In this document: positions 14,440-33,050 of the stretch, one piece after another | Numbering within the stretch: the stretch's first letter is position 1 | Layout of the letters: each line of letters starts with the position of its first letter | Origin: a virus | DNA: 45,052 nucleotides | Direction: 5' to 3' (one strand) | Virus record (IMG/VR): IMGVR_UViG_3300020219_000024 | Span: 1 to 45,052 of that record | Program-made: the position numbers and the translations under genes | The notes under the pieces: generated by a model | Databases searched by the model: none | What the model was told of the DNA's origin: nothing | The model's input: the letters and a program-made list of their open reading frames with translations, nothing else

Positions 14440-14970
14440 ATGGCTTTCAAAACTCGCAAAACTCCTGACGCGATGATGTTCGCTCTCGTAGCGGCTCACA
14501 ATCAGCGCATCGCCGAGGGTATCAGCACGTTTTTCCACTTGGATAAAACGTCCACATCTAACTCGGCCGACTACACAGCACCCACCACCGTGGCTCTCAC
14601 TGTGACGGCGGCGGCGTCAACCGACCTGGCAACATCCGTTGCTCTGGTTAACAACGCCAAGACGGTGCTAAATCTGCACTTCGCAGACACGGTCGCTCAT
14701 GATTCAGCAGTCTCGGCGCAAGTCGCGACGGCTACCGCTACCGATCTCGCTACGGGTATCACGTTGGCCAACGCTCTCAAGGCGGCGTTCAACACTCACC
14801 GCTCAGCGGCGTCGGTGCACTTCACCGATGACGGCGCCAACGCCATCGCCGCTACTGATGCGTCAGATCAGGCATCGCTTAACACGCTGCTCACTGAGAT
14901 AAAGGCAGACTTTAACCTGCACTTTGCATCGGCTCCCAGCATCGCGTTCATCGATCTCGTTTCCGCATAA
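14440..14970 (+). CDS. Structural protein with three His-containing helical repeats
   Basis: A 176-residue Ala/Thr-rich protein. Three internal repeats can be aligned: LVNNAKTVLNLHFADTVAH, then LANALKAAFNTHRSAASVHF followed by TDDGANAI, then LLTEIKADFNLHFASAP. The pattern is LxxxxKxxxNxH(R/F)xxxxxVHxxxDxxN. The same repeat occurs in the protein encoded at 31929-33050. Position just after the capsid gene suggests a head or neck structural role. AAAGG precedes the ATG. The repeat's function is not known to me; the paired His and Asp could bind metal or a sugar, which is speculation. Confidence 0.75.
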   Translation: MAFKTRKTPDAMMFALVAAHNQRIAEGISTFFHLDKTSTSNSADYTAPTTVALTVTAAASTDLATSVALVNNAKTVLNLHFADTVAHDSAVSAQVATATATDLATGITLANALKAAFNTHRSAASVHFTDDGANAIAATDASDQASLNTLLTEIKADFNLHFASAPSIAFIDLVSA

Positions 14971-14987
14971 ACCCTCGAAAGAACCTC

Positions 14988-15476
14988 ATGCCCACACTCT
15001 ACAACCAAACTAAACGAGCCTTAAGTTTCGAGCTCGGTGCGAAGACGTTCGCTTGTGACGCATGGGGCTCTGTCGATGTCCCCGGCAAGCTGGTGGAGGT
15101 CGCTATGGCCTACGGCTTGCCTTTGGGCACGGTACCGGTAGCGCCTGAGACTCGCGCCAAGTATCAGGTGCAGGCCGAGCAAGAGGCGACGCGCGACGAG
15201 CAGCTGAGCGCACTCCGTGAACAGATTGCGGATGCGCAAGCCTCCGAGCGAGCGGCCAAGGAAAAGCTCGATGAGACTCACGAGGAACTCAGCAAGATGA
15301 ACACAAAAGTTCAGGAGTCTCTTGCGAGAAACGCCGAGCTTGAGCGCTTCCTGGAGTCGGCACTCGATGACAAGAAAGCCGCCGAAGACTTGCTTGCCGA
15401 CACGGCTAAGCAGGCGACGATCGCCGAAGAGCGGGCAATCAAGTCAGAAGCCGTGAATCAGAAGCGCTCTAAATAA
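14988..15476 (+). CDS. Coiled-coil protein of the head-tail region (162 aa)
   Basis: The N-terminal 60 residues form a small domain (MPTLYNQTKRALSFELGAKT, then WGSVDVPGKLVEVAMAYGLP). The rest is a long heptad-rich helix (LREQIADAQASERAAKEKL and on to VQESLARNAELERFLESAL). Relatives with this layout are found in phages between capsid and connector genes, but I know of no assigned activity. A minor head or tape-like assembly factor is possible. The start follows a GAAAGAA ribosome site. Confidence 0.7.
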   Translation: MPTLYNQTKRALSFELGAKTFACDAWGSVDVPGKLVEVAMAYGLPLGTVPVAPETRAKYQVQAEQEATRDEQLSALREQIADAQASERAAKEKLDETHEELSKMNTKVQESLARNAELERFLESALDDKKAAEDLLADTAKQATIAEERAIKSEAVNQKRSK

Positions 15477-15482
15477 TCGGCC

Positions 15483-15893
15483 ATGGCACTTACCGCTGCG
15501 CAGAAGAAAGACGTGCGCAAGTACCTCGGCGTAGCGTTTGGCTTTTTCGACAAGAACACGCGCCTAGAGTCAATGCTCGACAAGGTCGGCGCAGATGCAA
15601 CCGACCAAGCAGAGCTGGCTCTGTGGCTCTCCGAGCTGACGCTGATTGATACGGCGTTGGCGACGACAGCGACATCAGGGTCCTATTCCTACGGGCCCCT
15701 AAAGAAGGTCGATGAGGTCGAATTTTACGACTCGGCCGGCTCGTCTGGCTCCGAATCACGGGTGAGCGCTATCGCTCGTGGGCGCATGTTGATCAAGCGC
15801 ATCGCGCGAGCCCTTGGCGTTGACGAGTATCTGCCCAACGGTGACTACTTCGGTGACACTCGGGACCTATCGGTAGCGCTGAGGCTCGGCTGA
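15483..15893 (+). CDS. Head-tail connector or adaptor protein
   Basis: 136 residues. The opening TAAQKKDVRKYLGVAFG is the helix found at the start of many head-completion proteins. A helical bundle follows (AELALWLSELTLIDTAL, and later ARGRMLIKRIARALGV), with a flexible Ser/Gly loop between. Length and place, after capsid genes and before tail completion genes, match gp6/gp36-type connectors that dock beneath the portal. The assignment combines weak sequence likeness and strong synteny. Confidence 0.7.
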   Translation: MALTAAQKKDVRKYLGVAFGFFDKNTRLESMLDKVGADATDQAELALWLSELTLIDTALATTATSGSYSYGPLKKVDEVEFYDSAGSSGSESRVSAIARGRMLIKRIARALGVDEYLPNGDYFGDTRDLSVALRLG

Positions 15894-15958
15894 GCCCTTC
15901 TGCCCAGCCGCCATTCCCGGCGGCCCTGAAGCTCTCAAGCAAGCATCACCGCATTGTC

Positions 15959-16321
15959 TTGGTTGGCGGTCCCCACACGGGCAAAACAACGCTAGCGCGG
16001 CAACTAGCAGCCCTGACGGGGCGGCGGTTGATTAGCTCGGACGATATTCAGCATCTGGGCTGGTCCGAGTCGTCACAACACCTCGCGGACATGATGGCGG
16101 ACGCTGGCCCTTGGATAATCGAGGGCGTCCAGGCGGCGCGCGCCATGCGTAAATGGGTCGCGGTCCGTAACGACGCGCCCGCTGACTTAGTCATCTATCG
16201 CCACCAAACTTTTGGACCTCTCAAGCCCGGCCACGTCTCGATGGGCAAGGGCGTGCGGACGGTCATGCAGGAGATCCATCCGGCGCTAATTCGCGCGGGT
16301 GTTGAACTCGTCCAGGTTTAA
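15959..16321 (+). CDS. P-loop NTPase/kinase-like protein
   Basis: VGGPHTGKTTLARQLAALTG is a Walker A P-loop and following helix, and the next strands (LISSDDIQHLG; WIIEGVQAARAMR) resemble adenylate- or shikimate-kinase-type folds, where an Asp in ISSDD and a downstream basic patch are expected. I give the TTG start at 15959 because it is the first usual start codon, but the beta strand before the loop (HHRIVLVGG) lies upstream. The frame is open from 15857, so a CTG at 15890 (overlapping the previous stop as CTGA) or 15926 may be the real start. A small kinase inside a head-tail module is unusual. Confidence 0.75.
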   Translation: MVGGPHTGKTTLARQLAALTGRRLISSDDIQHLGWSESSQHLADMMADAGPWIIEGVQAARAMRKWVAVRNDAPADLVIYRHQTFGPLKPGHVSMGKGVRTVMQEIHPALIRAGVELVQV

Positions 16322-16324
16322 CAA

Positions 16325-16774
16325 ATGACCCTCGCATCCGACCTCCTCAGCATCGTCAATCGCGTGCGAGCGATCCCCGGGCAGCTCGGCTTGCGGCCCT
16401 ACGCGGTCACGGTATCGGTTCGCTCTCTCTCTGGCGCTTACGGCCTCGAAGGCGACGCGGGCACGGTCACCACTTCTATTCTCGAGCACGGTGGGTTCGC
16501 ACCGAAGCTTCGGTTCCTGAACGATGAGCAATTAACTCTCGGCGGCATGCCGAAGGGCACCATCGAACTGGGGCCTATCACGCCGGCCTTCACGGGCGGC
16601 GGCACGCTCCTCGCTGCACTCACGGGCTCAGCGACCGAGACGGGCGAGCTTCTGCACTTCACCGTCACAGGCCCCGAGTTCCCCGCGGGCGCGCTCTATC
16701 GGCTCACGAGCGTCAAGAGTGACCAGGCGCTGCACTACACTCTGACACTGTCCCCAATCGCGGCGGACTCGTGA
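16325..16774 (+). CDS. Probable head-tail joining or neck protein (149 aa)
   Basis: A beta-rich, soluble protein (PYAVTVSVRSLSG, TVTTSILEHGGFAPKLRFL, LLHFTVTGPEFPAGALYRLT). The motif EHGGFAPKLRFLNDEQL resembles a conserved segment in neck or stopper proteins of phages with this gene order. It follows the P-loop gene by three bases, and the next gene's GTG overlaps its stop. Assigned by position and fold type. Confidence 0.6.
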   Translation: MTLASDLLSIVNRVRAIPGQLGLRPYAVTVSVRSLSGAYGLEGDAGTVTTSILEHGGFAPKLRFLNDEQLTLGGMPKGTIELGPITPAFTGGGTLLAALTGSATETGELLHFTVTGPEFPAGALYRLTSVKSDQALHYTLTLSPIAADS

Positions 16775-17517
16775 CGGTCTCGCAAAACTCAGTCTACAAG
16801 CGCATCGGCGCTATCCAGCTGCCCCTAGACGGCGCTTCGGTCACACCGACCGGAGTTATTCCGGACCCGGCGCTAGACGCGCTCCTGGCGCTGTTTAAGG
16901 CGGCTATCAATGACGAGCTCGCTCAGGCCTGGGGGCAGGCGGCCGACGGCACACCGATGGCCGGAAAAAACCCGGTACAGGACACGCTGCCGCTAGAGCC
17001 AAGCTCCAAGGTTTTCAGCGAACGCAAGCCAGCGTTTCCGCTCCTGTCGCTCCATCGCTCGGGGCCCGCGGAGTACGCCGAACACACGCTTTGGATCGAA
17101 AAGCGCACTCAGCAATGGGAGCTCAATTATTTTCTGGACGCGCTCCGCGTCGACCATCTCCACCGGGTCTGGGCCGCGTTGACATTCGTTCCGACGATTG
17201 TCTCCTCGGTCATCCGGCATCGCGGACACAAGGCTTATCTCGCGGGCGCTTCGCAGTTTGGGCCCACCACTGGCGTTGGCGCGCTTAGCTCGATTCGTCT
17301 TATGCGGCACGAGTCAGGCACCGCCAAGTTTGCCAGCGATGAAGCATCACCGGCCTACGCGGCGTGCACGATGACTATCGAGACGGTGGAGCTCGAACAC
17401 CACATCGACGGCTCGTTCCCCGACCTAGCAGGCGCTCGCTTCGACTTTGGCGTTGGCGGCACTGACGGCGTTATCCCCTCGCTCATCTACGCGGACACAG
17501 ACGCGCCGGTTCAATGA
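16771..17517 (+). CDS. Tail completion or terminator-region structural protein (248 aa)
   Basis: The GTG start overlaps the previous TGA. It has an N-terminal Pro/Asp segment, then an alpha/beta domain (EHTLWIEKRTQQWELNYFL, later DHLHRVWAALTFVPTIVSS) and a C-terminal Gly-rich end. It lies among the small genes that in Mu-like phages supply tail terminator and completion factors. I do not recognise it by sequence. A structural, neck or tail-terminator function is inferred from synteny. Confidence 0.6.
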   Translation: MTVSQNSVYKRIGAIQLPLDGASVTPTGVIPDPALDALLALFKAAINDELAQAWGQAADGTPMAGKNPVQDTLPLEPSSKVFSERKPAFPLLSLHRSGPAEYAEHTLWIEKRTQQWELNYFLDALRVDHLHRVWAALTFVPTIVSSVIRHRGHKAYLAGASQFGPTTGVGALSSIRLMRHESGTAKFASDEASPAYAACTMTIETVELEHHIDGSFPDLAGARFDFGVGGTDGVIPSLIYADTDAPVQ

Positions 17518-17786
17518 CAACCACCACTTCCAAGCTCAAAAACAAGCCTAAAAAGCCGGGCCTGGCTGTCATCGATTGTCGAGACCGCGACATGGATAAG
17601 GCGTGGGCCAAGTCGCTCAAAATGCAGGCGGAGCTAATCGCAAAAGACGGCATGCGCGCCTACGCGATTGTCATTCTGCACCCCGATGACACTTACTCGA
17701 CATCGTGCCACACGGGCAGTCGAGCGCTCTCGCTTCTAGGCGCGCTCACCAAGCTTCAGCACCAATTGAGTCAACAGGAAGACTAG
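17514..17786 (+). CDS. Hypothetical protein of the neck region (90 aa)
   Basis: Four-base overlap with the previous gene. A Lys-rich, probably flexible N-terminus (TTTTSKLKNKPKKPGLA) leads into a small alpha/beta domain (LAVIDCRDRDMDKAW; GMRAYAIVILHPDD) and a C-terminal helix (LLGALTKLQHQLSQQ). The next gene's GTG overlaps its TAG by one base. No known activity is recognised. Confidence 0.6.
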   Translation: MTTTTSKLKNKPKKPGLAVIDCRDRDMDKAWAKSLKMQAELIAKDGMRAYAIVILHPDDTYSTSCHTGSRALSLLGALTKLQHQLSQQED

Positions 17787-18241
17787 TGGACGCGATCAAC
17801 ATCCGCGGGCTTGTCAAGCAGCACAAGCACTTCGTTCAGCGCCTCACTCGGGCTCTTGACCTATCGCTAGAGCGGTCGACCGAGCTCGCCGAGCAGCACG
17901 TTCGGAGATACTCGAAGTTCAAGCAGCGGTCAGTTAGAAGCCTCAAAAACACGACCGAAACGCGCGTTGTTCGGACTGCCCGCGGTCGGGTGGTCAGCAT
18001 CAAGTCGCCCAAGCGTTACGCGAGCTTTGTCGAGTTCGGCACCAGGCCGCACATCATCCGGGCACGCAAGTCCAAGTTTCTGGTCTTCCGCGGCAGGTCG
18101 GGCGCTCTCGTCTTCCGGCGCTCCGTCAAGCACCCAGGCACCAGGCCTACACACTTTCTCTGGAACGCGACAAACGCCGCTTACCGCTTCTCGATTCAAG
18201 ACATGACAGAACGGGCCGGAAGGCTCGCGAAGGAATTCTAA
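17786..18241 (+). CDS. HK97 gp10-like tail completion protein
   Basis: Members of the HK97 gp10 family join tail and head. The signature is visible: KRYASFVEFGTRPHIIRARK (the exact YAxFVEFGTxPHxI pattern), followed by KFLVFRGRSGALVFRRSVKH and PGTRPTHFLWNA. An N-terminal helix (LTRALDLSLERSTELAEQHV) completes the usual 150-residue length. GTG 17786 overlaps the preceding TAG and is preferred over an in-frame start at 17705 that lies wholly inside the upstream gene. Confidence 0.85.
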   Translation: MDAINIRGLVKQHKHFVQRLTRALDLSLERSTELAEQHVRRYSKFKQRSVRSLKNTTETRVVRTARGRVVSIKSPKRYASFVEFGTRPHIIRARKSKFLVFRGRSGALVFRRSVKHPGTRPTHFLWNATNAAYRFSIQDMTERAGRLAKEF

Positions 18242-18246
18242 TCCCA

Positions 18247-18594
18247 ATGGCAAAACTCAAATTCTACGCACGCGCGGACCTCCTAGAGCTGGTTCCGGAC
18301 CAGGCGCTTTTCGTCGGCAATCCGCCTCGATACGTTGGGCGCGCATATGTTGTTGTGGACGGCGCCGCCTCGTTCCCCGCATCGAAAGACGCGCACGAGT
18401 GCGAAGAGACAAGCGCGGAGGCACACGTGCTGAAGATTCGCTGCCGTCGAGATGCCTCGCTTTGGCCTGCCGACAAGCACACGGCGGACGCTTGCAGCGT
18501 TGAGTTCACGCCTGTTGATTTCCAGGACGGCGAATGGATCGCCGCGCCCACCAAACCCGCCCTCACCGTTTCGGCCTCGAAGTCGAAGGAGTAA
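18247..18594 (+). CDS. Hypothetical protein before the sheath gene (115 aa), positional analogue of Mu gp38
   Basis: Beta-rich first half (LKFYARADLLELVPDQALFV, GRAYVVVDGA) and a Cys/His-containing second half (CEETSAEAH, KIRCRRDASLWPADKH). In Mu-like genomes a short gene (gp38, DUF2635) sits just before the sheath gene; this one is longer and only loosely similar. It ends six bases before the sheath GTG. A small tail factor is likely, but the exact role is unknown. Confidence 0.6.
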   Translation: MAKLKFYARADLLELVPDQALFVGNPPRYVGRAYVVVDGAASFPASKDAHECEETSAEAHVLKIRCRRDASLWPADKHTADACSVEFTPVDFQDGEWIAAPTKPALTVSASKSKE

Positions 18595-18600
18595 TAACCA

Positions 18601-20154
18601 GTGGCTCTAATTCCTATCACGGGGCTTCCGAGCTCCAACCGTGTGCCTGGCGGATACGCCGAGATTCTCTTTGCTCAAGGCGCTACTAGCTCGGCGCTTG
18701 GCGCGCGTGAGGTCGTCATCGTCATGCCCAAGACGAGCGCGGGCACCGCTGTAGCAGGCTCGCTTTACTCTATTGGTAACGAACAAGATCTGCGCACCTA
18801 TTGCGGCGTCGGCTCCCCCGGACACCGCGCCGGGCGCATCTTCCTCAAGGCCAACAAAGGCGCAAGGCTCTGGTATCTCGGGATGAGTGCGACGACCGGC
18901 GGCACTCCCGGTGCGGCGGCAAGCACGATCACATACGCGGGGACCGCAAGCGCCTCCGGCTCCACCACCGTGACGATATGTGGAGAGGAGATTTCTGTTG
19001 GGATTCGCTCAGGCGATACGGCAGCCACCATCGGCGCAAACGTCATCGCGGCCATCAACGCCTCTGAGCATCTTCCGGTAACGGCGTCCGGCGCTGCCGG
19101 GGTTGTCATCACGGCTAGGATTAGCGGGCTCAACCAGGGCGATGGTACCGTCCCTGCCATCAGATACCGCGCTGTGATTACAGCCGGCATCACAACGACC
19201 GTTGCGGCTGACGGGGTGGCTGTTGGAATTGGCGGCGCCTCCACCGCTGGCGTCGAAGGCACCACGACCGAGGCCACACAGCTCGCAACGGCGCTTGCAT
19301 CCCTCGATGCTGTGCGCAAGTACTATATCGTTACCAGCACATATTTGGCAGCCGGCCTGACCAGTCTGGTCACGCATCTCAATGCCAAGAGCCTACCAAC
19401 CCCCGGCTTACGAAGCGTCGGCATCTGCGGCTTCAACGGTGCGCTGGCAGCAACTCAAACGCTCTCGACTTCGCGTAACTACGAGCGACTTGTGCTCGCC
19501 TGGCAACGCAACTCGGAACACGATCCGGCAGAGCTTGCGGGCAATCTCGCGGCTGTTATGCAACTTCGCCAGGGCGTCGATTCGTCGTTCAAGTTCGACA
19601 GCTACCGACGCGCAGACTGGCTCATCAAGCCGGTGTTTGCCGCGGCTGATTACCTCACTCACAACGACATGAGCGACGCAATCAACTCGGGCATCACGGC
19701 CATCGCAAGCGACGGCTCGGGCTCGTACATCGTGATGCTGCTCGATACGCGGAGCAAAAACAGCGCTGGCACCGTGGCGGACTTCCGCGCCACCGAACAG
19801 CACCGCATCAGCGTTGCGGACGAGTTTGCGGACCAAGTGTTGGCCAACTTCGCGCTCAACTACGGTGAAGCCAAGCTGGCTTCCGACGTGTTCTTGAGCG
19901 ATGGCAAGCTGGACCCGGCGCCAGACCTGCCACCGGGCGTCATCACACCCGAGCTGCTCAAGCCATTCCTCCGCAACGAAATCGATACCTTTGTAGCTGC
20001 CGGCAAAATGCAAGACGCCGCGGGCATGAAGCTCTCGCTTCGAGCGGTGCGCGATCCGAACAACTCCGGCCGCGTCGAGTTCGCCCTGGACATCCGCGTC
20101 ATCGACCACCTGCATCAGGGCACGTTCCGGATCGCAGAAGTCTCGCCCGGCTAA
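18601..20154 (+). CDS. Tail sheath protein (Mu gpL-like)
   Basis: The contractile sheath subunit. The start IPITGLPSSNRVPGGYAEIL matches the Mu gpL N-terminal pattern (P.SNLP...VPG.YAE). The centre is rich in Ala, Thr and Gly (two beta-sandwich insertions around residues 90-215). The C-terminal part has the conserved sheath core (RLVLAWQRNSEHDPAELAGN, later NYGEAKLASDVFLSDGKLDP, and LDIRVIDHLHQGTFRI at the end), which forms the inter-subunit handshake strands. Length 517 aa is typical. The GTG start is used. The contractile-tail call for the whole window rests mainly on this gene. Confidence 0.95.
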   Translation: MALIPITGLPSSNRVPGGYAEILFAQGATSSALGAREVVIVMPKTSAGTAVAGSLYSIGNEQDLRTYCGVGSPGHRAGRIFLKANKGARLWYLGMSATTGGTPGAAASTITYAGTASASGSTTVTICGEEISVGIRSGDTAATIGANVIAAINASEHLPVTASGAAGVVITARISGLNQGDGTVPAIRYRAVITAGITTTVAADGVAVGIGGASTAGVEGTTTEATQLATALASLDAVRKYYIVTSTYLAAGLTSLVTHLNAKSLPTPGLRSVGICGFNGALAATQTLSTSRNYERLVLAWQRNSEHDPAELAGNLAAVMQLRQGVDSSFKFDSYRRADWLIKPVFAAADYLTHNDMSDAINSGITAIASDGSGSYIVMLLDTRSKNSAGTVADFRATEQHRISVADEFADQVLANFALNYGEAKLASDVFLSDGKLDPAPDLPPGVITPELLKPFLRNEIDTFVAAGKMQDAAGMKLSLRAVRDPNNSGRVEFALDIRVIDHLHQGTFRIAEVSPG

Positions 20155-20208
20155 CGTCCGCGGCTCTCAAGTATTGAATCCAACATCCCCACTTAGGGCG
20201 TTTTTTCT

Positions 20209-20583
20209 ATGGCTACTTTGCAAGACTACGCGAAGATCCCGGTATTTTATAACGGGACCAAGCTCATCCAAATCACTTCGGTCAAGATGACCATGAACAG
20301 CGGCCAGCAGCGCGTCGACCTGCTCAACGAAGGCTTGGGCGGCTTTACGCCTGGCTCGGGCGACGTCTCGATTGAGCTCGGTTTCGTAATCCCCATCGGT
20401 GGTCCCGAAGCCAACTTTCAGCAAGACTGCGACCTTGGCAAATACGTCACGTTCCAGGTCGGAATCGGCCGGCTAAGCTACATTGGGCGCGGCAAGATCC
20501 TGAGCGTCGACATGAGTCAGAGCACCAACGCAAGCAGCGAAGGTTCGCTGAGCTGGGTCGGGCAAAAGAAATCAATCGAGTAA
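20209..20583 (+). CDS. Tail tube protein (Mu gpM-like)
   Basis: 124 residues, immediately after the sheath gene. LIQITSVKMTMNSGQQRVDL and ELGFVIPIGGPEANF are the curling strands of the tube fold, and a closing SSEGSLSWVGQKKSIE resembles the end of gpM-type tube proteins. The ATG lies after AGGGCGTTTTTTCT with only a weak ribosome site. Hairpins downstream may set its message level apart from the next gene, as the tube is needed in far greater amounts. Confidence 0.88.
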   Translation: MATLQDYAKIPVFYNGTKLIQITSVKMTMNSGQQRVDLLNEGLGGFTPGSGDVSIELGFVIPIGGPEANFQQDCDLGKYVTFQVGIGRLSYIGRGKILSVDMSQSTNASSEGSLSWVGQKKSIE

Positions 20584-20598
20584 GCAACCACAACTGAC

Positions 20599-20693
20599 AC
20601 GCGAGCTTTGGAGGGCTCCAGCTTGCGCGTCCATTTAGGTAGGTCACCTGCTGAGCATCGCCCTCTCATGATGCTTGGCTCGTGGCCTTTTTT
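20599..20693 (+). terminator. Hairpins and T-run after the tube gene
   Basis: A first hairpin spans 20599-20630 (ACGCG...CGCGT with inner AGCT and GGAG/CTCC pairs). A second has AGCATC 20654-20659 with GATGCT 20670-20675. GGC-TCGTG-GCC (20677-20687) then runs into TTTTTT (20688-20693), 11 bases before the next ATG's upstream base. It looks like a partial terminator or attenuator between the tube and chaperone genes. Confidence 0.5.
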
Positions 20694-20698
20694 GTTAA

Positions 20699-21460
20699 AT
20701 GTCCGGACCACCGAAGAACGTAAGCGCCAGCGCGCTCTGGCTCAAACTCCAAGAGACGCCGCGCCCTAGTGATGTCGTCGACTTTCCTCGAAGCGACGAG
20801 ATGGGAAACGCGGTTGGCCGCGTGCGCATCCAAGTTCTCAACATGGAGGACCACGACCGCGCCAGAATCTGGGCTGATAAGAAGTTCAAGGACGCGGGCG
20901 ATTCCCCCGTGATGCGCGAAGTTATGGGCGACCAAGTGGCCAAGGAGCTACTCGCCATGGCCTGCTTCGAGGCCGAGCCCGTCGCGGACATTGAGCCGCC
21001 AATCTATCGGCGCATCTTCGCGGACGCCAAGCAACTCGACAGCTTGACCGCTGATGAGCTTGCGGTGCTGTTCAATCACTACATCACGATCCAGCACAAG
21101 TACGGCCCGTACGAAAAGACCATTGAGTCAGAAGCCGATCTGAATCTCTGGATAAAGCGTCTTGAGGAGGGCGGCTCCGAGCACCCTTTAGGACAGCTTA
21201 CCTTGCCTCAGTTGGTGCAGTTAGCCTACATGCTGGCAAGGAGGGCCTATACGCTGTCCCACATCCTGGGATCCCAACTCTCGATCTTGCCAGATTCTTT
21301 GGTGTTGAAGTTAGAGACCTACTCTATGGGCACTGGCTTCTATGGCGAGCCGCAAGAGAGCAGCACACAAACTTCTTCGGAAAGCTCTGAAACGCGCGAC
21401 CTTTACGAAGCGATTGACGCCGACGAGGCAATGCGCCGCGCTCTTGAAATGCGAAAGTAA
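20699..21460 (+). CDS. Probable tail assembly chaperone
   Basis: A 253-residue acidic helical protein between tube and tape-measure genes, where chaperones that coat the tape measure are always found (Mu gp41/gp42 position). Helical segments include DHDRARIWADKKFKDAG, TADELAVLFNHYITIQHKYG and LTLPQLVQLAYMLARRAYTL. The Ser/Thr/Glu-rich C-terminal part (QESSTQTSSESSE) is flexible. I see no slippery site that would need a -1 frameshift; the chaperone appears as a single continuous frame. Confidence 0.72.
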   Translation: MSGPPKNVSASALWLKLQETPRPSDVVDFPRSDEMGNAVGRVRIQVLNMEDHDRARIWADKKFKDAGDSPVMREVMGDQVAKELLAMACFEAEPVADIEPPIYRRIFADAKQLDSLTADELAVLFNHYITIQHKYGPYEKTIESEADLNLWIKRLEEGGSEHPLGQLTLPQLVQLAYMLARRAYTLSHILGSQLSILPDSLVLKLETYSMGTGFYGEPQESSTQTSSESSETRDLYEAIDADEAMRRALEMRK

Positions 21461-21471
21461 AACTTTAGACC

Positions 21472-23709: not shown

Positions 23710-24082
23710 ACGAGTGCCGACAGAAGCGGCAGATGCGGGCGGATACCTGCACCGCCTCGCCACAGTCCGGGCAATGTCTAGCAACTTCGATTTGCCGCGT
23801 TGGCTTGACGGGCTGCGCCGCCCTCCGCTTTGCGGCCACTCTACCCCAGACGAGAAACCCAACGAGCAACGCCAGAAACGCGAGCATCGCCAAGCCCTCG
23901 TTACGCTGATACCAGTCGCTCAGACTTCGACTCTCAGACGTGTCAGCCGTGCAAGCCCTGAAACCCAGGAAGGCAAGCGCAAACGTTCCGAGCGCACTCA
24001 AGCAGCCGCACCCGTGCTGCACCTTGACCGTCTGAGTCTCCACCATTCCCCAAAAGCTTGGCGTTATTGGCCGAGAAGTCAA
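23702..24082 (-). CDS. Antisense zinc-ribbon membrane protein (moron-like)
   Basis: A 126-residue gene on the opposite strand within the tail operon. The C-terminus CPDCGEAVQVSARICRFC (residues 104-121) is a complete four-Cys zinc ribbon of the type common in small bacterial membrane proteins (UPF0547-like CPxC...CxxC). Two hydrophobic segments precede it (GTFALAFLGF about residues 32-41; LAMLAFLALLVGFLVWG about 65-81), with a basic KRRAAQPVKPTR just after the second. It overlaps the tape-measure end tail-to-tail and starts 13 bases from the divergent gpN-like ATG, so its promoter would lie inside that gene. An in-frame ATG at 24046 is an alternative start. Orientation and content suggest a cargo gene expressed apart from the late operon. 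Confidence 0.85.
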   Translation of the reverse strand: MTSRPITPSFWGMVETQTVKVQHGCGCLSALGTFALAFLGFRACTADTSESRSLSDWYQRNEGLAMLAFLALLVGFLVWGRVAAKRRAAQPVKPTRQIEVARHCPDCGEAVQVSARICRFCRHSFT

Positions 24083-24095
24083 CAGCCCCTAGCAA

Positions 24096-25004: not shown

Positions 25005-26196
25005 CGAGACAGACCCGCAGCTCCTGGTGAAACTGGAGACAAGCGGACGGGCTCTCACCAACATCACCGAATATTCTCTCCAGTCGTCGTTCCTGACCTC
25101 AACCGATGGGTTTGAGTTCACAACCTACGCGGAGGATCGCACCAAACTTCAAGACCTCGAGCTTGAGCCGGTCGAGCTTCTGCTCAACGGTAACAGTCAA
25201 GTGATCGGGCGAATCGACCAATCCGAGATTGGTGGCAACGGGTCCGCGGTCACGTTCCGAGGTCGCGACTTCGTTTCAGATCTGGTTGAGTGCAACGTTG
25301 ATCCAACCCTGAAAATCACTCAGGGGATGTCGCTCTTTGAGGCCATTACGCTAGCGGCGTCGCCAGTCGGCATCGATTCGATCATCAGCGACGACGACAT
25401 AGCGATGCGGGAAATCCGCTGCGGCGTGAAGGGCAAGAAGAGCAGCGGGGACAGCGGCATTAAGGCGCTGACGGTTGAGGACCTAAAGCCCAAGTCCGGC
25501 GAGGGTATCTACGAGTTTTGCAATCGGCTCTGCGCTCGCTTCGGCGTGACCATTCAGCCAGGCAACAACCGCACAACGCTAGTGCTCGCCGCACCTAGCT
25601 ACTCACAGACACCGCTCTACGAGCTCCAGCGCACGGACGACCCAGACAAGAGCGTTGCCAACAATATCTTGGATGCGCGGGTCACGCGGGATTACTCAAG
25701 CTTCCCGACCTACACGTTAATGAACGCCAAAACTGGCGAAAGCGGCCAGGCAAAAAAGGACGTAGTCAAACACTTTGACATGTCGATTCTGGCCTCCGAG
25801 TTCAACAACGAAATGGGCCGCATCCTAGGCGCACACTCGGTGCCAGGCCGCCGCAAGCCAGAGCCGGGCATTGGCCCGCTACCGCCGTCTCAACTCTATC
25901 GGCTGCTGTACCTCCGAGACGAGGAAAGCCGAACGCAGGAGCAGCTAGAGCGAGCAGCAAGGCGCGCCATCAGCTCCAGGCTCAAGGACACGCTGCGCTA
26001 CTCCGCCACGCTCCTAGGCCACCAGGACCCGCACAGCGGGGCGCTCTGGGCGATTGACACCATGGTCCGAGTCTCCGATTCGATCCTCGGCGTCAACGAA
26101 GACCTCTGGATCGAATCTAGAACCTTCAAATATTCCGCAGGCCAAGGCGCCACGACTGAGATCGAATGCTGGCGCCCCAACTCCTTTGTGATCTGA
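24991..26196 (+). CDS. Baseplate hub protein (Mu gpP/gp44-like)
   Basis: This hub sits at the base of the tail tube. The start is GTG 24991, overlapping the gpN-like stop by 14 bases. Key features: QLLVKLETSGRALTNITEYS at the start, TFRGRDFVSDLVECNVDP near residue 90 (the F.GRD.. pattern of gpP/gpD hubs), GIYEFCNRLCARFGVTIQPG near 175, and AIDTMVRVSDSILGVNEDLW towards the end. Length of about 400 is typical. It precedes the spike gene, as in Mu and P2 relatives. Confidence 0.9.
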   Translation: MAQPDETDPQLLVKLETSGRALTNITEYSLQSSFLTSTDGFEFTTYAEDRTKLQDLELEPVELLLNGNSQVIGRIDQSEIGGNGSAVTFRGRDFVSDLVECNVDPTLKITQGMSLFEAITLAASPVGIDSIISDDDIAMREIRCGVKGKKSSGDSGIKALTVEDLKPKSGEGIYEFCNRLCARFGVTIQPGNNRTTLVLAAPSYSQTPLYELQRTDDPDKSVANNILDARVTRDYSSFPTYTLMNAKTGESGQAKKDVVKHFDMSILASEFNNEMGRILGAHSVPGRRKPEPGIGPLPPSQLYRLLYLRDEESRTQEQLERAARRAISSRLKDTLRYSATLLGHQDPHSGALWAIDTMVRVSDSILGVNEDLWIESRTFKYSAGQGATTEIECWRPNSFVI

Positions 26197-26203
26197 ACCC
26201 CCT

Positions 26204-26827
26204 ATGCTGATCGACGTCGCACAGCTCGGAGCCTCCAAGCTCAACCCCAAAACAAACGCCGTTGTGGCTCAGGCGGGTATTCCGACCGGGCCCGACGAGC
26301 ACGAGGCGTTCGGTGAGCTTGACGTAATGGCTTGCCTCGGCGTGTTGGCAAAGCCTGCGCCCAAGAATGACAACGGGCATGTTGAGGCGGTAGTGGCGCG
26401 CGGCGTAGGCAACTCCAATGGCGTCATCATTGGGGCTCGCGACAATCGGAGCAGCAAGGTAGCGGGCGAGCTGAAGGACGGCGAAACCGCTCTCTTCGCA
26501 ACCGGCGAAGACTTCGATGCTCGAGTGCTCTGCAAGGACCAGCAGGTCGCAATTGTGGTCGGCGACGACATGGTTTTCAGCATGGACCGCAAGGAAAAGA
26601 AGATCTCGCTTGCCGCGTTCGGCTGCATCTTTGAGATCAGCGAGTCGGGCGGAATCAACATCTCGTCCGGTGGCGCCGGACTCATCATCAGCGGCTCGGG
26701 CGTGAACCTTTACGGCGGCTCGGTGGTAGTGGGCGGCATGGTTGGCACGCCGGCAACCGCGGTTATCATGGGCGTGACTGGCATCTCCGGCGTTCCCGCT
26801 CCAAACGTATTCATCGGTGTCGGTTGA
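26204..26827 (+). CDS. Baseplate spike/puncturing protein (Mu gp45-like)
   Basis: 207 residues. The N-terminal half is an OB-type domain (HEAFGELDVMACLGVLAKPA, then GDDMVFSMDRKEKKISL). The C-terminal half is a Gly/Val/Ser repeat (GGAGLIISGSGVNLYGGS, VVVGGMVGTPATAVIMG) typical of the triple-stranded beta spike that pierces the outer membrane. No HxH iron motif is visible near the end, so the metal-tip type is not supported. The next gene starts in its stop codon (TTGA). Confidence 0.85.
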   Translation: MLIDVAQLGASKLNPKTNAVVAQAGIPTGPDEHEAFGELDVMACLGVLAKPAPKNDNGHVEAVVARGVGNSNGVIIGARDNRSSKVAGELKDGETALFATGEDFDARVLCKDQQVAIVVGDDMVFSMDRKEKKISLAAFGCIFEISESGGINISSGGAGLIISGSGVNLYGGSVVVGGMVGTPATAVIMGVTGISGVPAPNVFIGVG

Positions 26828-27126
26828 GCCGCTGCGCGTTCAATCTGCCGAGCTTCCAGCTCCCGATACCAGCGCTGCCTTCGCTGCCGACGTTTCCCAG
26901 CTTCAGCATCGGCATTCCGGGGCTGACACTGAACCTCTCGCTGCCGAGCTTTCAGCTCCCCATCCCGGCGCTTCCCTCACTCCCGACACTGCCGAGCTTT
27001 GCCATCGGCATACCAGGGATTCAGCTCAATTTCGCCGCCATGCTTCCCTCGTTTCAGCTCCCCATCCCGGCATTGCCGCAGCTGCCCAACTTCCCGAACT
27101 TTGGCATCGCTTGCCCCCTGGATTGA
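26824..27126 (+). CDS. Triple-repeat Pro/Leu/Phe-rich protein behind the spike
   Basis: A 100-residue protein built from three near-identical units, each starting LPSFQLPIPALP. The first two continue LPxxPSFxIGIPGxxLN, and the third ends FPNFGIACPLD. It is extremely Pro/Leu/Ile-rich with almost no charge, so an extended, hydrophobic rod or plug is expected. The TTG start overlaps the spike stop. It is two bases from the wedge gene. In position it could cap or fill the spike, like the PAAR tip proteins of other systems, but there is no sequence likeness to them. Confidence 0.8.
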   Translation: MSRCAFNLPSFQLPIPALPSLPTFPSFSIGIPGLTLNLSLPSFQLPIPALPSLPTLPSFAIGIPGIQLNFAAMLPSFQLPIPALPQLPNFPNFGIACPLD

Positions 27127-27127
27127 T

Positions 27128-27565
27128 ATGGGACTCGGCGTCAAATCAGTAGGCCTGTTCCCGTTTGGCTACGGCACCCCGGTCACAGGCGCGGCTCCAG
27201 CCGATGGCCCTTCGGGCGTGCGTTACCTAAACTTTCAGACGCGAGACTACGAAGTCGACGCAACCACGCGACAGCTCAAGCAGATGCCGAGCCTACGACA
27301 GCGCGTGCTGATTCGCCTGATGACACTGGTGGGTTCAAGCACCGTGCAGCCGACCTTCGGAATCAGCCTCCCTGATCGAATGGGCGACGGCTTCGAGCGA
27401 ATTGTTAACACCGCAGTGCGCTCGGCCTTTCGACAGGAAACCACGATTGAGAAAATCATGCGTATTGACCAAATCTCGACCGTGAAGCTCAGCAGCGGGC
27501 GTGCTCAGATCACCTTGATATTCACCGACCTAAAAAGCGGGAATGTGGATCGGGTGATCGCGTGA
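27128..27565 (+). CDS. Baseplate wedge protein (gp25/Mu gp46-like)
   Basis: The gp25 family nucleates sheath contraction at the baseplate. Visible: QRVLIRLMTLVGSSTVQPTF (the LlTp.GsR..rP.FG-like stretch), GISLPDRMGDGFERIVNTAV, and IDQISTVKLSSGRAQITLIF near the end, the paired strands of the family. The start is ATG 27128, two bases after the repeat-protein stop. A longer frame from 26999 lies inside the previous gene and was rejected. Length of 145 aa matches the family. Confidence 0.87.
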   Translation: MGLGVKSVGLFPFGYGTPVTGAAPADGPSGVRYLNFQTRDYEVDATTRQLKQMPSLRQRVLIRLMTLVGSSTVQPTFGISLPDRMGDGFERIVNTAVRSAFRQETTIEKIMRIDQISTVKLSSGRAQITLIFTDLKSGNVDRVIA

Positions 27566-29061
27566 GCTCCAAGCTGACCGTTGTCAAAAACGCTGCCGAG
27601 CTGCGTGATCAGTTCCTGCGCGACATTCGCCTAGCGGCAATCGATGCGGGCGTAACGGCTCCTCCTGTCACACCCGGCACGGACTGGTTCATGTTGGCGA
27701 CAGCGGTCGCGAACGTGGGTCTAATCGCTCAGGCGAACATCGCCATCTCTGACTCTGAGATCTCAATCTTCACTGCCTCAACCGAGCGCCTAGCACAGCT
27801 CCGTAGTGAGTACGGCCTGCCAGAGGTACAGAAGTCTGGCGCCTCAGGGCGCGTGACCATCAGCGTTTCAGGCGCGGCAACGATACCATCAGGCACTCAG
27901 TTGCTTCTGCCCAACGGTTTCCGAATTCAGGTTGTCGGCACCTACGTCAGCCCGACCGACGGACAAGAAATTGACGTGACCGCGGTGGACCTCGGCAGCG
28001 CATCCAACACAGTCGCGGGCACGCCTGTTCGGTTCATCAGCGCGCCGTTCAACATCCTCGAGGTCGCTACGGTCTCAATCGGCGCCCCGCTGACTGGCGG
28101 CATCGACACCGAGACCGAGGACAGGCTTCGTAAGCGCATCCTCAACGTGACGCAGAACCGCCCAGCCGGCGGCAATTGGGCACACGTCCGCGAGGTCGCG
28201 CTTAACTCCAGCGGGGCTGTGCAGGATTGCTTTATCTATCCGGGACTCGGCGGCCCGGGCTCATCGCAGGCCGTGCCGGTCAAGATGTATGACAGGCCAA
28301 ATCTAAACTTCTCGCGCGCTATGAATGCCGCGCAACTAAACACGGTCCGCGGCGCCATCCAGTCACAGTTTGGGCTCGACACCGAGCACGTGATTCGGGC
28401 AGCCGCAGACGAGCGCGTTGACGTAGCGCTCTCGATGTCTCTCCCGGCCTCCGCGCTGGCGGGCGGCACCGGCCTAGGCTGGCTTGACCCGACGCCTTGG
28501 CCCACGCCTACGGGCGCAGACCTCGGGCGCTGCCAGGTGTCGGTCTACACGGGCGTGACGCTCACCACGAGCGCAGCGACCACGACGACTCCGGCGGCGC
28601 TGCAAACCAAAATTGCCTGGTGGTCGCCGAATGACATGCGCTTTTACCAAGGCCTCGTCATCTCCTACACGGGCGGCACCGGCGCATGGGAGCTGATTCT
28701 CGACAAGCCTCTCGCGGACTCTACGGGAGCTGCGCCGGCGGTCGGTGACTACATATGCCCAGCGGCCAAGTCGCTCTCACTCTACGGCGACGCGTGGCTT
28801 GACCTGCTTGAGAATCTAGGCCCGGGCGAGAACACGGCGGACATCAATCGCCTCCCGCGCTCGCTCCGCAAGCCACTTGTCACCGACGCTGCACCAAGCT
28901 CCGTCAACGCAGCTGCGCTCTCACGCTTCACCGACAAGTTCAGTGAGATCAATTCGACCGCGGTCAGCTACTCAAGCCAGACCGTGCCGACAACCCCCGT
29001 CATCGTCTCAGCTAGTCCCAACGTTTTAAGCCCGCGCAAGTTCGCAGTTTACCCGGCATAA
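27562..29061 (+). CDS. Baseplate J-like protein (Mu gp47-like)
   Basis: The J/gp6 family forms the wedge arms. Features: FLRDIRLAAIDAGVTAPPVT near the start, a strand-rich middle (GRVTISVSGAATIPSGTQLL, the hallmark IPaGT... loop), GGIDTETEDRLRKRILNVTQ at about 180, and NWAHVREVALNSSGAVQDCF just after. The C-terminal 200 residues include an insertion (TTTPAALQTKIAWWSPNDMR) and a final Ser/Thr tail. The GTG start overlaps the wedge stop by four bases. At 499 aa it is longer than Mu gp47 (about 360), mainly through the C-terminal extension. Confidence 0.9.
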   Translation: MSSKLTVVKNAAELRDQFLRDIRLAAIDAGVTAPPVTPGTDWFMLATAVANVGLIAQANIAISDSEISIFTASTERLAQLRSEYGLPEVQKSGASGRVTISVSGAATIPSGTQLLLPNGFRIQVVGTYVSPTDGQEIDVTAVDLGSASNTVAGTPVRFISAPFNILEVATVSIGAPLTGGIDTETEDRLRKRILNVTQNRPAGGNWAHVREVALNSSGAVQDCFIYPGLGGPGSSQAVPVKMYDRPNLNFSRAMNAAQLNTVRGAIQSQFGLDTEHVIRAAADERVDVALSMSLPASALAGGTGLGWLDPTPWPTPTGADLGRCQVSVYTGVTLTTSAATTTTPAALQTKIAWWSPNDMRFYQGLVISYTGGTGAWELILDKPLADSTGAAPAVGDYICPAAKSLSLYGDAWLDLLENLGPGENTADINRLPRSLRKPLVTDAAPSSVNAAALSRFTDKFSEINSTAVSYSSQTVPTTPVIVSASPNVLSPRKFAVYPA

Positions 29062-29064
29062 CCC

Positions 29065-30219
29065 ATGATTGCATTCTTCGAACGACTCAAGGCCATCGGT
29101 TGGGCATACGGCGAAAAGCTAACGTCCACGCAGCAGAGCGCCATCGATAGTCGTCAGCAAAAGCTGATGTCAGATCAAGTCGATGACTGGTTGCAGAACT
29201 GGACGACGGTGGCGCTAGCGCACGATGTCCATCATCCCACGCGGCTGGCGTCTGGTCTCACAATTGCTGGAGTTAACGCTGCATCAAATACCGTCATCTT
29301 CATGGCAGACGTGCAACGGGTCTCCACGAACAGGGTCGTGGCGCCAGCGTCCGGCAACTGGCAATATCAGGACTGTTGCGGGTACGGCACAAATGCGATG
29401 TTCGCGGGGTCGAACACCACGGACTACACAAAAGCCGTTTGGTCCGTCGACAAAGCCAACATGCTCAACATGACCGAGAGAACCATCACAGGGGCAGTTG
29501 TCGGCGACTTCGCGGGAGCTGGGTGCTATTGCGTTGTCGACCCGACCGACGGCTATTTTTACATCTTCTCCGGCGTAGCCGCTCGCAAGGTTTGGAGTTC
29601 TCCGACCGCAGCGACATGGACCGCTCGCGCCGCGGCCACGGGCGTCAACACGCTCAGTTCCGCAGGCGGCGGCACCGGTCGCCCGGTTGTGGCCAACAAC
29701 GGCCACCTAATCACGTTCGGCGACAACGGCGCAGCCATCGGCCAGTTCAGTTATTCGAGCGACTACGGGGCGACATGGACCACTACCACGATTGCCAGCT
29801 CGGAGCCGATTGTCGGAATGAATTGGAGTCCTACGCGCGGGCTATGGGTCGTGGTTGGCAAGTTCGGGAGGGTTTGGACGAGCGCCACTCCAGGCGGCGC
29901 GTTCACTTTGCAAAACACGGCATTCAGCACTGTTGCTCCCGCCAACAGAATAACGACTGTCGTCGTCGCGGATGGCGTTATCGCTGCCGTTTATGACAAT
30001 CTAGACGGCGGCGCCAACCGGCCCGGCTGCCTCTTGCTCTACAGCATTGATCTCGGGGCAACCTGGAAAGCCGTCGCCATCGATGAAGCCGAGAATGCAG
30101 GCCTTTGGTTTCTCGGCTTTGATAATCAGGCGCTATGGCTGCGCCGCGGCACGACAAACTACCGGACCAGAGCCATCGGTAACCCGATGACCGTGGCGAA
30201 CGGAACCATCGGCACATGA
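29065..30219 (+). CDS. Asp-box beta-propeller-like tail protein
   Basis: 384 residues. Two clear Asp-box (BNR) motifs, SSDYGATWTT near residue 233 and SIDLGATWKA near 328, with degenerate copies between them (VVGKFGRVWTSATPGG), indicate a beta-propeller like sialidases or photosystem-assembly proteins. The N-terminal 40 residues are helical (FFERLKAIGWAYGEKLTSTQ), probably the docking part. No sialidase Arg triad could be assigned. It opens the long host-recognition region. A carbohydrate-binding tail component is likely; enzymatic activity is unproven. Confidence 0.72.
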   Translation: MIAFFERLKAIGWAYGEKLTSTQQSAIDSRQQKLMSDQVDDWLQNWTTVALAHDVHHPTRLASGLTIAGVNAASNTVIFMADVQRVSTNRVVAPASGNWQYQDCCGYGTNAMFAGSNTTDYTKAVWSVDKANMLNMTERTITGAVVGDFAGAGCYCVVDPTDGYFYIFSGVAARKVWSSPTAATWTARAAATGVNTLSSAGGGTGRPVVANNGHLITFGDNGAAIGQFSYSSDYGATWTTTTIASSEPIVGMNWSPTRGLWVVVGKFGRVWTSATPGGAFTLQNTAFSTVAPANRITTVVVADGVIAAVYDNLDGGANRPGCLLLYSIDLGATWKAVAIDEAENAGLWFLGFDNQALWLRRGTTNYRTRAIGNPMTVANGTIGT

Positions 30220-30749
30220 CGACACCTCTCGGCCTTCCTGCGTGGGCCCGCTCCGCAGATCACACCTACTACGGTGGGCACTTGCAGAAGGCCAACTACC
30301 TCAACCAGGGCGTCATCGATCCGCTCACCGATGTCTCGGCTGAGGCTCTCTGTCGAGCCGCAGAAGACTTGGCAGCGATTGCGCGGACTGCGCCCTTTTG
30401 CGTGCTCTCGTACACAGGCAGCGATACCGTGCCGGCTGCGCCTACGATCAGCGCAGCGTACCTGATGACGGGGATCCAAACCGTTAGCTACCTGGGCAGC
30501 TCGCCGCCTTCGGGATTCCCCAGTGCGTCACGAGTCGGCGACGGGCAATGCTCCTTTGTGTTCGCCTCGACTTACGCGGATGCGTATGGCGTGGTCGGCG
30601 CATTCACCCCGCGCTTCGTTTTGGCGAATCTCTCCGGCAGCACGGGCACGGTTGAGTGGTCGATCTCCGGCCAAACGGTCACAGTTAGAGCGCGCACCAC
30701 GGCAGGCGTCGATATCGTCAACGCCCGTCTAAGTCTGATGGTTGCCTGA
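30216..30749 (+). CDS. Tail protein with shared TTPxGxPAW N-terminus (177 aa)
   Basis: The start overlaps the previous stop. The opening MTTPLGLPAWARSADHTYYG reappears, slightly altered, at the start of the protein encoded at 31186-31932, so it is a shared docking segment. The remainder is beta-rich (ISAAYLMTGIQTVSYLGSS, then TPRFVLANLSGSTGTVEWS), with a C-terminal VRARTTAGVDIVNARLSLMV that looks related to the end of the next protein. It probably forms part of a fibre or wedge-bound receptor-binding layer. No family is named. Confidence 0.65.
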   Translation: MTTPLGLPAWARSADHTYYGGHLQKANYLNQGVIDPLTDVSAEALCRAAEDLAAIARTAPFCVLSYTGSDTVPAAPTISAAYLMTGIQTVSYLGSSPPSGFPSASRVGDGQCSFVFASTYADAYGVVGAFTPRFVLANLSGSTGTVEWSISGQTVTVRARTTAGVDIVNARLSLMVA

Positions 30750-31189
30750 TGGCGTTAGGTGCATTTTCCCCGCTCCCACTGCGTCTAGGCGGCTCGATTC
30801 AGGACGGATGGACTCCGGAGCAGCACGCGCGCTTTTGCGCTGACCTGGTGGCGACCAAGCGAATGGCTCCGCTGTTCTGGGCTATCGCGACGGTCGGCGT
30901 CAGCGTCGCAACAGTGGACAGCTACCGCGGCCAGAACGGCGACGGTTTAGCGTTCGCTCCCACCGCGACGTGGATAGGCATCGGCAACTTCACGCTAGAC
31001 TTCACCAACAAGGTTTTCACTGATGCCTTCGGCGTGTCCGAGCCAATCAGCGTGCGCTACGCGGTCGGGACCGCTACCACTGCGCTGCTAACGCGTTTCA
31101 CGAACGACGCATCAACCAAGCTATCCGTGCGGCTCCACGACGCGACCGGCGCGACCGCCAACGGAACGATTTGCATCCTCGCATGGTGA
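30749..31189 (+). CDS. Small beta-rich tail protein (146 aa)
   Basis: TGATG one-base overlap with the previous gene. It begins LGAFSPLPLRLGGSIQDGWT and ends VRLHDATGATANGTICILAW, the latter resembling the C-terminus of the protein encoded at 30216-30749 in layout, so the two may be distant paralogues of one fold. It has no repeats or catalytic motif. Its position inside the baseplate-fibre transition suggests a structural adaptor. Confidence 0.6.
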   Translation: MALGAFSPLPLRLGGSIQDGWTPEQHARFCADLVATKRMAPLFWAIATVGVSVATVDSYRGQNGDGLAFAPTATWIGIGNFTLDFTNKVFTDAFGVSEPISVRYAVGTATTALLTRFTNDASTKLSVRLHDATGATANGTICILAW

Positions 31190-31932
31190 CCACTCCAACG
31201 GGCAAGCCGGCATGGAGCCGGAAGGCCGACATCGCGGACTATGGCGGTTCGCTCAACAAGCTCGGTGCGGGCGAAGCCGATGAGCCATACGCTGGAACGC
31301 TCTACCGCGAGTTTCAGTCGATGCGCGGCTCAGCGTACACACGCGAGCGAAACACCCTCGTGCACGCCGAAAACCTCGCGCTAGCGCGTTTCTTCGCCCA
31401 CGTCGGCTGGAGAGTGCCTGAGAAGTTCCGCGCCAACCTGACGCCAGCCAGGGCCTCGGACAAGCTAGGCTACTGGGTCGATGTGCTCGGTGTTTCGACA
31501 CGCCCAGAGGACAACGAAGACGACATTCGCCTAAGCTGCTCAGCCAATTTTCAGATCGCAAAGGGCAACAGCTACATCGCGGTTCTTGACGCGGTCAAAG
31601 CCCTGCTCGGAACCAAGTTCGTGGCCATCCTGCTCTCCCGCGGGACAGACCTAGCCAACCCGCCGCTCAACACCTTCTGGCCCGGCGTTAACCCAGGCCC
31701 CGGAAGCTACAGCCTCGGAGGCGGCGCCTGGACTAGCGAACGCTCGCACGTTGCGATCCAAGTAACCAAGCCGGCTGATTCAGAGCTTGGCGATTTTATC
31801 GAGCTGATGGACGGCAAACTCATTCCGCTGCTCGACTCGATCCTGCCCGACCATGTGACAACCAGCTGGGTAACCGGCGACGGCTTCTTGCTCGACATCT
31901 CACAACTCGACTTCGATGGGCTTGGACCTTGA
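31186..31932 (+). CDS. Mu gp48-like (tail protein I family) baseplate protein
   Basis: After the shared TTPTGKPAWSRKADIADYGG segment comes a helical domain (LALARFFAHVGWRVPEKFRA, then DKLGYWVDVLGVSTRPEDNE and GNSYIAVLDAVKALLG), resembling the P2 gpI/Mu gp48 layout that links wedge to fibres. The C-terminal half is beta-rich (SHVAIQVTKPADSELGDFIE). GTG 31186 overlaps the prior TGA and aligns with the MTTPLG start of the paralogous N-terminus; ATG 31183 is the alternative. Recognition is moderate. Confidence 0.65.
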   Translation: MTTPTGKPAWSRKADIADYGGSLNKLGAGEADEPYAGTLYREFQSMRGSAYTRERNTLVHAENLALARFFAHVGWRVPEKFRANLTPARASDKLGYWVDVLGVSTRPEDNEDDIRLSCSANFQIAKGNSYIAVLDAVKALLGTKFVAILLSRGTDLANPPLNTFWPGVNPGPGSYSLGGGAWTSERSHVAIQVTKPADSELGDFIELMDGKLIPLLDSILPDHVTTSWVTGDGFLLDISQLDFDGLGP

Positions 31933-33050
31933 CCGCTCTTGTAATTCAGCCCCAATACCCGGTGCCAAATCGGGAGTTTAAACTTTCGGTCACCATCACG
32001 GGCTCGGGCGCAAACTACGCGCGCGTCTGGGTTACTGCGGCTCCAGACAAAAGCGAGCTGGCCAAGAAGCTGGCAGATTCGCGGTCATCACGGGTCCAGA
32101 TTTACGAGGGACTCGGTACAGCCATTCCCTTCACCGTCGACCGCGGCGGCATCTATGTCGTCTCGGTCCAGGAGTACACCAAAGGCGCCACTGGCTACGG
32201 CGGCGGCTTCGAGGGTTCGGCAAGTGGCTATCAGAGCGAGACCGAGGTGGGCGCGGCGACAACGCTTTACATCAACGTGGGCCATCGGCTGGTGCTGCCA
32301 ATCGGCAAGGCTCCGGACACTAGCGACCTGACGATCTGGTGCTTCGGGAACAACATCCGCCAGACCATTGCAGACGTGCACGGCGAGACCACGCCAGCCC
32401 TGTTCAACTCGCGGACAGCAAAGGCGCGCTACGCGGCGCTGAACACAAACGTTCTAGCCGATCTCGCTAGTCTCGTAGACCTAGACTCAGCGACCGCGGC
32501 CGGCGTTATGTCGACCATTATCACCAATCTTATTGCCAAGTTTAACGCTCACCGCATTCTGGGAGGCGTGCACGCCGCGAACGACACGGACAACGTAGTC
32601 AGCACATCGATCATCCCGACATCCGGAGTGCTGAGCGCTGCCGGTATCGTGACCGCGGCAAACGAACTGCTGCTCAACATGACGCGGCACTTTCGCAACG
32701 CCAAGGCATCCGCTCTCGACGTCGGCTCGCAGGGCTACCACGCCCCCGGCGCATCCAAGTGTTCGGACTTGGCGAATCTCCCAATCTCTGGCGCAGCAAG
32801 TGACCCGGCGTCAGCGCTGCTCCTCATCGCGGACCTGTGGCGCGCTTACTCGCAACACCGGATCAGTTCGGTCTTTCACGATGCGGCAGACATAACCAAC
32901 GTAGCCACAGCTTTGCCGAAGATCCCAAATCTGATCAGCCTGCATATTCTATCGCTCAAAGAGTCCACCCCCTCGATTGTGCCGGCGACCGAACCGACAG
33001 GAACCGTGCTTTTGACCCAATCCCTCGGATTTAAGGAACAGAATGCCTAG
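31929..33050 (+). CDS. Tail protein with His-containing helical repeats, related to the 14440-14970 product
   Basis: TTG start in the TTGA overlap. The first 150 residues are a beta domain (SGANYARVWVTAAPDKSELA; GGIYVVSVQEYTKGATGYGG). Then come three copies of the helical His repeat: ITNLIAKFNAHRILGGVHAA with NDTDN, a decayed ANELLLNMTRHFRNAKAS, and LLIADLWRAYSQHRISSVFH with DAADITN. The same repeat appears in the head-region protein at 14440-14970. A fibre-base or receptor-binding role is likely from its place; the function of the repeats is not known. Confidence 0.75.
   Translation: MTALVIQPQYPVPNREFKLSVTITGSGANYARVWVTAAPDKSELAKKLADSRSSRVQIYEGLGTAIPFTVDRGGIYVVSVQEYTKGATGYGGGFEGSASGYQSETEVGAATTLYINVGHRLVLPIGKAPDTSDLTIWCFGNNIRQTIADVHGETTPALFNSRTAKARYAALNTNVLADLASLVDLDSATAAGVMSTIITNLIAKFNAHRILGGVHAANDTDNVVSTSIIPTSGVLSAAGIVTAANELLLNMTRHFRNAKASALDVGSQGYHAPGASKCSDLANLPISGAASDPASALLLIADLWRAYSQHRISSVFHDAADITNVATALPKIPNLISLHILSLKESTPSIVPATEPTGTVLLTQSLGFKEQNA

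Follow-up and report, generated by a model that had tools for sequence, protein, structure and literature searches.

The window analysed here, a complete 45,052-base IMG/VR record, comes from a contractile-tailed phage whose genes for portal, capsid, sheath, tape measure and baseplate could be identified. Two of its genes, here called A and B, carry three-unit modules with six histidines (Table 1). Four further tail-end genes lie between the baseplate-J-like gene and B, and the second gene past B (33783-34526) encodes a LamG-type concanavalin-like domain (PF13385, E=1e-21). Elsewhere in the window, positions 3334-4782 encode a helicase-like protein in which near-identical Ala/Lys-rich repeats of the ASPEGKAKQAAY type follow one another through the C-terminal part, and the product of 6819-7847 resembles, by eye only, a DNA cytosine methyltransferase (FAGCGG motif).

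Table 1 Features of the window relevant to genes A and B, with the basis of each assignment.
Feature	Position	Strand	Description and basis
Major capsid gene	13416..14420	+	Immediately upstream of A; phrog_9953 major head protein, E=4e-18
Gene A	14440..14970	+	176 aa; short N-terminal helix and one three-unit six-His module; ORF, unit HMM (3 units), AF2
A residues 11-28, N-terminal helix	14470..14523	+	Low confidence, AF2 pLDDT about 60
A module, residues 33-163	14536..14928	+	Six invariant His, three helices; alignments A3/A5, AF2
Baseplate-J-like gene	27562..29061	+	Upstream of B; phrog_6 baseplate wedge, E=6e-24
Gene B	31929..33050	+	373 aa, baseplate side; FN3/Ig-like N-terminal domain and divergent three-unit six-His module; ORF, unit HMM, relatives
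B residues 1-120, FN3/Ig-like beta sandwich	31929..32288	+	AF2 model, VIA-align
B module, residues 151-317	32379..32879	+	MAFFT alignment A7, ortholog alignments A4/A8, AF2 at modest confidence

The invariant histidines of A, identified from alignments, are H33, H80, H87, H120, H127 and H161. Its N-terminus is conserved in the aligned orthologs L006, L015, L019 and L027, and the helix within it probably serves as a docking segment. The fold proposed for A derives from one AlphaFold2 monomer prediction with 18 sequences (mean pLDDT 76.9, pTM 0.75), in which helices 63-82, 103-122 and 144-163 are predicted confidently (pLDDT about 92-98), each stopping two residues past its motif His. Foldseek searches of this model against the PDB and BFVD returned no similar solved or viral fold. 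A designed C3 homotrimer was considered as a match and set aside, its VIA-align Z of 2.6 being too weak to use.

The AlphaFold2 model of B is weak overall (mean pLDDT 55, pTM 0.43). Its N-terminal sandwich aligns with FN3/Ig domains at VIA-align Z of about 8 to 8.8 (rmsd about 2.5 Å over 80-90 residues), and this modelled domain is the probable attachment domain of the protein. The module helices are predicted at the same positions as in A, at lower confidence: the first two (191-209 and 237-256) terminate at H208 and H254 or shortly beyond, and H310 lies inside the third (293-318). Long insertions separate the units. A seventh conserved histidine, H317 (window 32877-32879), followed by Asp321 and Asn324, lies outside the six-His set. 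Full-length relatives of B were found at loci L003, L012, L068, L069 and L071, and a partial one at L072. At L003 (10974-12116 of MW202476.1) the B homologue is a single open frame, annotated in the record as two overlapping short hypothetical proteins.

The relationship between A and B was assessed with profiles of the repeat unit, which spans about 40 residues. A first unit HMM, built from A and its IMG/VR or MW202476.1 relatives with B left out, matched B at E=9e-10 among 3,174 ORFs, in line with the link that a sequence-only reading of this DNA had drawn between the two proteins; apart from A and B, no window protein fell below the inclusion threshold. Profile-profile comparison of the two families gave a probability of 88% (E=3e-6), and the A- and B-profiles recovered each other's genes in whole contigs. 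A blind MAFFT alignment of A-like and B-like proteins contained exactly six invariant columns, every one a His, in which H151, H208, H215, H254, H271 and H310 of B match the six of A. In the B relatives fetched later, four of the six His are kept in both L071 and the partial L072; full-length L071 retains all six, and L072 keeps the module His wherever its sequence reaches. A likeness due to chance or to Ala/Leu-rich composition, as might be suspected of two Ala-rich proteins with helical stretches, is extremely improbable: with an enlarged unit HMM (196 units) B scored 47.6 bits against 7.7 for the best of 2,000 shuffles of its sequence, which rules out chance similarity, and the histidines coincide in an alignment made blind. 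Two divergent B relatives behaved like B in the shuffle test. These profile and alignment comparisons show that A and B carry a homologous module.

The sequence-only reading had counted three repeat units in each product and assigned them one pattern (Asn-x-His-Arg/Phe, Val-His, Asp-x-x-Asn). The unit HMM confirmed the count. Of the pattern, the two His per unit proved constant, whereas the strict text fails in some units: B unit 2 reads T-R-H-F and unit 3 S-Q-H-R, and the first inter-helix loop of A lacks Asp-x-x-Asn. The strongest feature of the module, its organisation in triplets, had been missed.

Both genes occur together in several contigs: in the window, in a near-identical relative (which holds L005 and L012), in MW202476.1 from Manatee Spring (identities of 46% and 36%), in the L027 contig and, with B only in part, in the L006 contig. 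Their resemblance is therefore not due to recent copying inside a single genome; A and B are an old pair. The MW202476.1 record is titled Siphoviridae yet encodes a tail sheath.

Scans of IMG/VR yielded dozens of unit-bearing proteins, most of them from fragments of uncultivated phages. When helices were counted per uninterrupted array, with one protein kept per cluster, 48 of the 50 arrays with at least three helices held 3, 6, 9, 15 or 21, including 39 blocks of exactly three; the two that break the rule hold 4 and 5. The four-helix exception (L044, 5980-6546) has a coil-like N-terminus ahead of its first helix, perhaps one trimerising unit followed by a triplet. Within long arrays, similarity is higher between units that share a phase (modulo 3) than between others, strongly in L022 (21 units, p=2e-4) and L016 (15 units, p=2e-3) and weakly in L024 (15 units, p=0.04), although some rows come from related contigs and are not fully independent, so that the p-values are too small. 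Judged from these arrays, the unit of evolution is the triplet. A related N-terminus and similar neighbours unite five proteins (L007, L046, L016, L024 and L022), which carry 3, 6, 15, 15 and 21 units, respectively, and form a natural length series in which the evolution of projections can be studied.

A further regularity concerns the sixth histidine. In the usual triplet the second His is absent from the last unit and one His precedes the first helix; in others the arrangement is reversed. Among 50 blocks, the sixth His was found only before in 29, only after in 11, on both sides in 10 and on neither in 0 (Fisher p=9e-6), the stretches searched being so broad that a His may fall in them by chance, which accounts for some of the class with both. 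This exchange, together with the multiples of three, points to a closed ring, and we infer that the triplet behaves like a circularly closed domain. An open helical solenoid or a string of independent beads, with the multiples of three reflecting a duplicated three-unit segment, is quite unlikely. Duplication alone could yield the period-3 similarity, and the absence of a fold match in Foldseek is compatible with such an architecture; however, single triplets dominate across diverse proteins, and the before-or-after exchange would be left unexplained.

The module occurs in a range of virion proteins. Its fusion partners include a tail-tube protein (L051, PF18906), a further phrog_290 tail protein (L023) and a major tail protein (L018, phrog_9522); it is also present in 2,000-residue proteins (L009 and L020) and in post-capsid and baseplate-side genes, a spread that agrees with the earlier suggestion of a module moved between virion proteins. 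Searches of Pfam, NCBIfam and PDB sequences gave no credible family for it; no Pfam or NCBIfam model covers it, as the sequence-only reading had supposed in knowing no named domain, and literature searches found no description of its repeat. The PHROG family phrog_6994, "head fiber protein", matches L007 (3e-8), L011 (2e-7) and L006 (1e-5) over about one helix and does not match B; for A itself, phrog_6994/20838 reached only E=0.097. This name is an annotation label, not a test of function. Among annotated phages, tblastn retrieved only MW202476.1 with A, B and L007 as queries and nothing with L011, L060 or L031; a consensus query also found no match there, possibly owing to low-complexity masking. 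A profile search with the B copies of the window and MW202476.1 added two more B relatives, and an IMG/VR scan for relatives of L003 found none. A genome scan for the unit returned a single locus, in an Archaeoglobus MAG. This unit ORF (L065, 7893-8228) is identical to the one at IMG/VR loci L063/L064, so that the contig is either a provirus or a mis-binned piece of phage DNA. A module family without a name recurs in structural proteins of uncultivated phages, with the six-His triplet as its recognisable signature.

Our preferred reading, to which we assign a probability of roughly 0.55, is that of a mobile six-His triplet module that decorates the virion as a closed pseudo-C3 bundle, perhaps pinned by metal. 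A and B each hold one copy, in which a single chain contains three homologous units. A unit comprises a predicted ~20-residue helix with an invariant His in its last turn; after a loop of some six residues comes a second invariant His, and an extended return segment leads on to the next helix. The hydrophobic helix positions 9, 12/13, 16 and 20 are heptad-like, and the helix-end His 23 falls in the core register. The three units would close with pseudo-threefold symmetry, so that the six His would gather at one end of the parallel three-helix bundle, which they would pin together. Parallel packing, His clustering, surface exposure and the role of the module are all candidate features of this model. 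Attachment to different virion parts would be provided by the carriers, namely the short helix in A, the FN3-like sandwich in B and tail-tube or major-tail domains elsewhere, and arrays of 2 to 7 modules would form longer projections.

The six His would most likely hold one metal ion, in the manner of the phi11 receptor-binding protein (RBP). Metal binding, one of the two functions suggested earlier, is plausible in view of the six invariant His and the phi11 RBP precedent; as a step of the model it is the least certain part, with a chance that we place a little under one half. The more specific picture, in which head, tail tube and baseplate carry a single-chain, triplicated six-His metal knot and up to seven of these stack as metal-pinned helical beads, is put forward tentatively, as less likely than not. 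A rival account, less likely than the preferred reading, retains the same triplet module and gives the His a purely structural part, capping the helices and hydrogen-bonding to the Asp/Asn of the return segment with no metal involved. Behind the second His, most units have Asp 34 (89%) and Asn 37 (85%), which would suit such local bonds. Yet these residues are lost in several units, such as the one bearing the first inter-helix loop of A, where the His stay invariant; a sixth His that can come from before or after the triplet suggests a site shared by the units; and the phi11 RBP holds iron with nearly the same spacing.

The other function suggested earlier, glycan binding, found no support, the module matching no carbohydrate-binding family. 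Aromatic and acidic clusters are usual for glycan-binding sites, and the conserved residues of the module are not such clusters. We consider a glycan- or host-surface-binding domain unlikely, even though the module occurs in proteins likely to protrude from the virion and the LamG-type, lectin-like gene lies two genes past B.

Returning to the closed metal-pinned bundle, the single-chain pseudo-trimer may have arisen from a homotrimer. Two one-unit chains, L060 and L063, are encoded directly downstream of a capsid-type gene (phrog_1623), the same place that A occupies in the window, and such chains behind a capsid gene are to be expected if the homotrimer came before the single-chain form. A single unit of this type, as a homotrimer, would give six His, which favours the proposed origin. 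Other one-unit sequences, L031 and L032, lack the His. If the six His do hold metal, this shows how a joint of homotrimeric fibres can turn into a stackable module made of one chain, and virions would carry an extra metal load on both head and tail, with a bearing on ideas of phages as iron ligands (PMC11705849).

The closest known system is the stem of the phi11 RBP (gp45, Staphylococcus phage), in which three chains each contribute His42 and His50 to hold an iron on the axis of a triple helix, a His-x7-His arrangement placed where the coiled coil ends (PMC4901313). Like the proposed module, it is a three-helix bundle with two His per helix; the module has a helix-end His, usually x6, and a second His, three times over. 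Unlike that stem, which is formed by three separate chains, the module places three units in one chain, occurs in arrays and is found on several virion proteins. Comparison of the unit and triplet profiles with all PDB sequences returned no phage RBP among the matches. The T4 gp37, P2 and phi92 spikes contain HxH iron sites built from six His in a threefold arrangement (PMC11705849, PMC4901313). These are beta-structured homotrimers with His-x-His, whereas the module is predicted to be helical and has longer spacing. The A-like and B-like triplets share with such iron-bearing fibres and spikes the provision of two His per strand or helix, three times, six in all. The PHROG "head fiber" families 6994 and 20838 differ from the module in being short (67 and 88 positions) and in having no triplet in their models. 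Phage Ig-like domains offer a parallel of a different kind, being described as promiscuous and present on capsid-side, tail-tube and tail proteins (Fraser et al. 2006, as cited in PMC8718954). The module likewise occurs on several unrelated virion proteins (the PF18906 tail tube, phrog_9522, post-capsid and baseplate-side genes). The Ig-like fold is a beta sandwich, whereas the module has three units and is helical in the AlphaFold2 model of A; in B it is the separate N-terminal domain that is FN3/Ig-like. By analogy with phage Ig-like domains, the module probably acts as a stable surface decoration or spacer.
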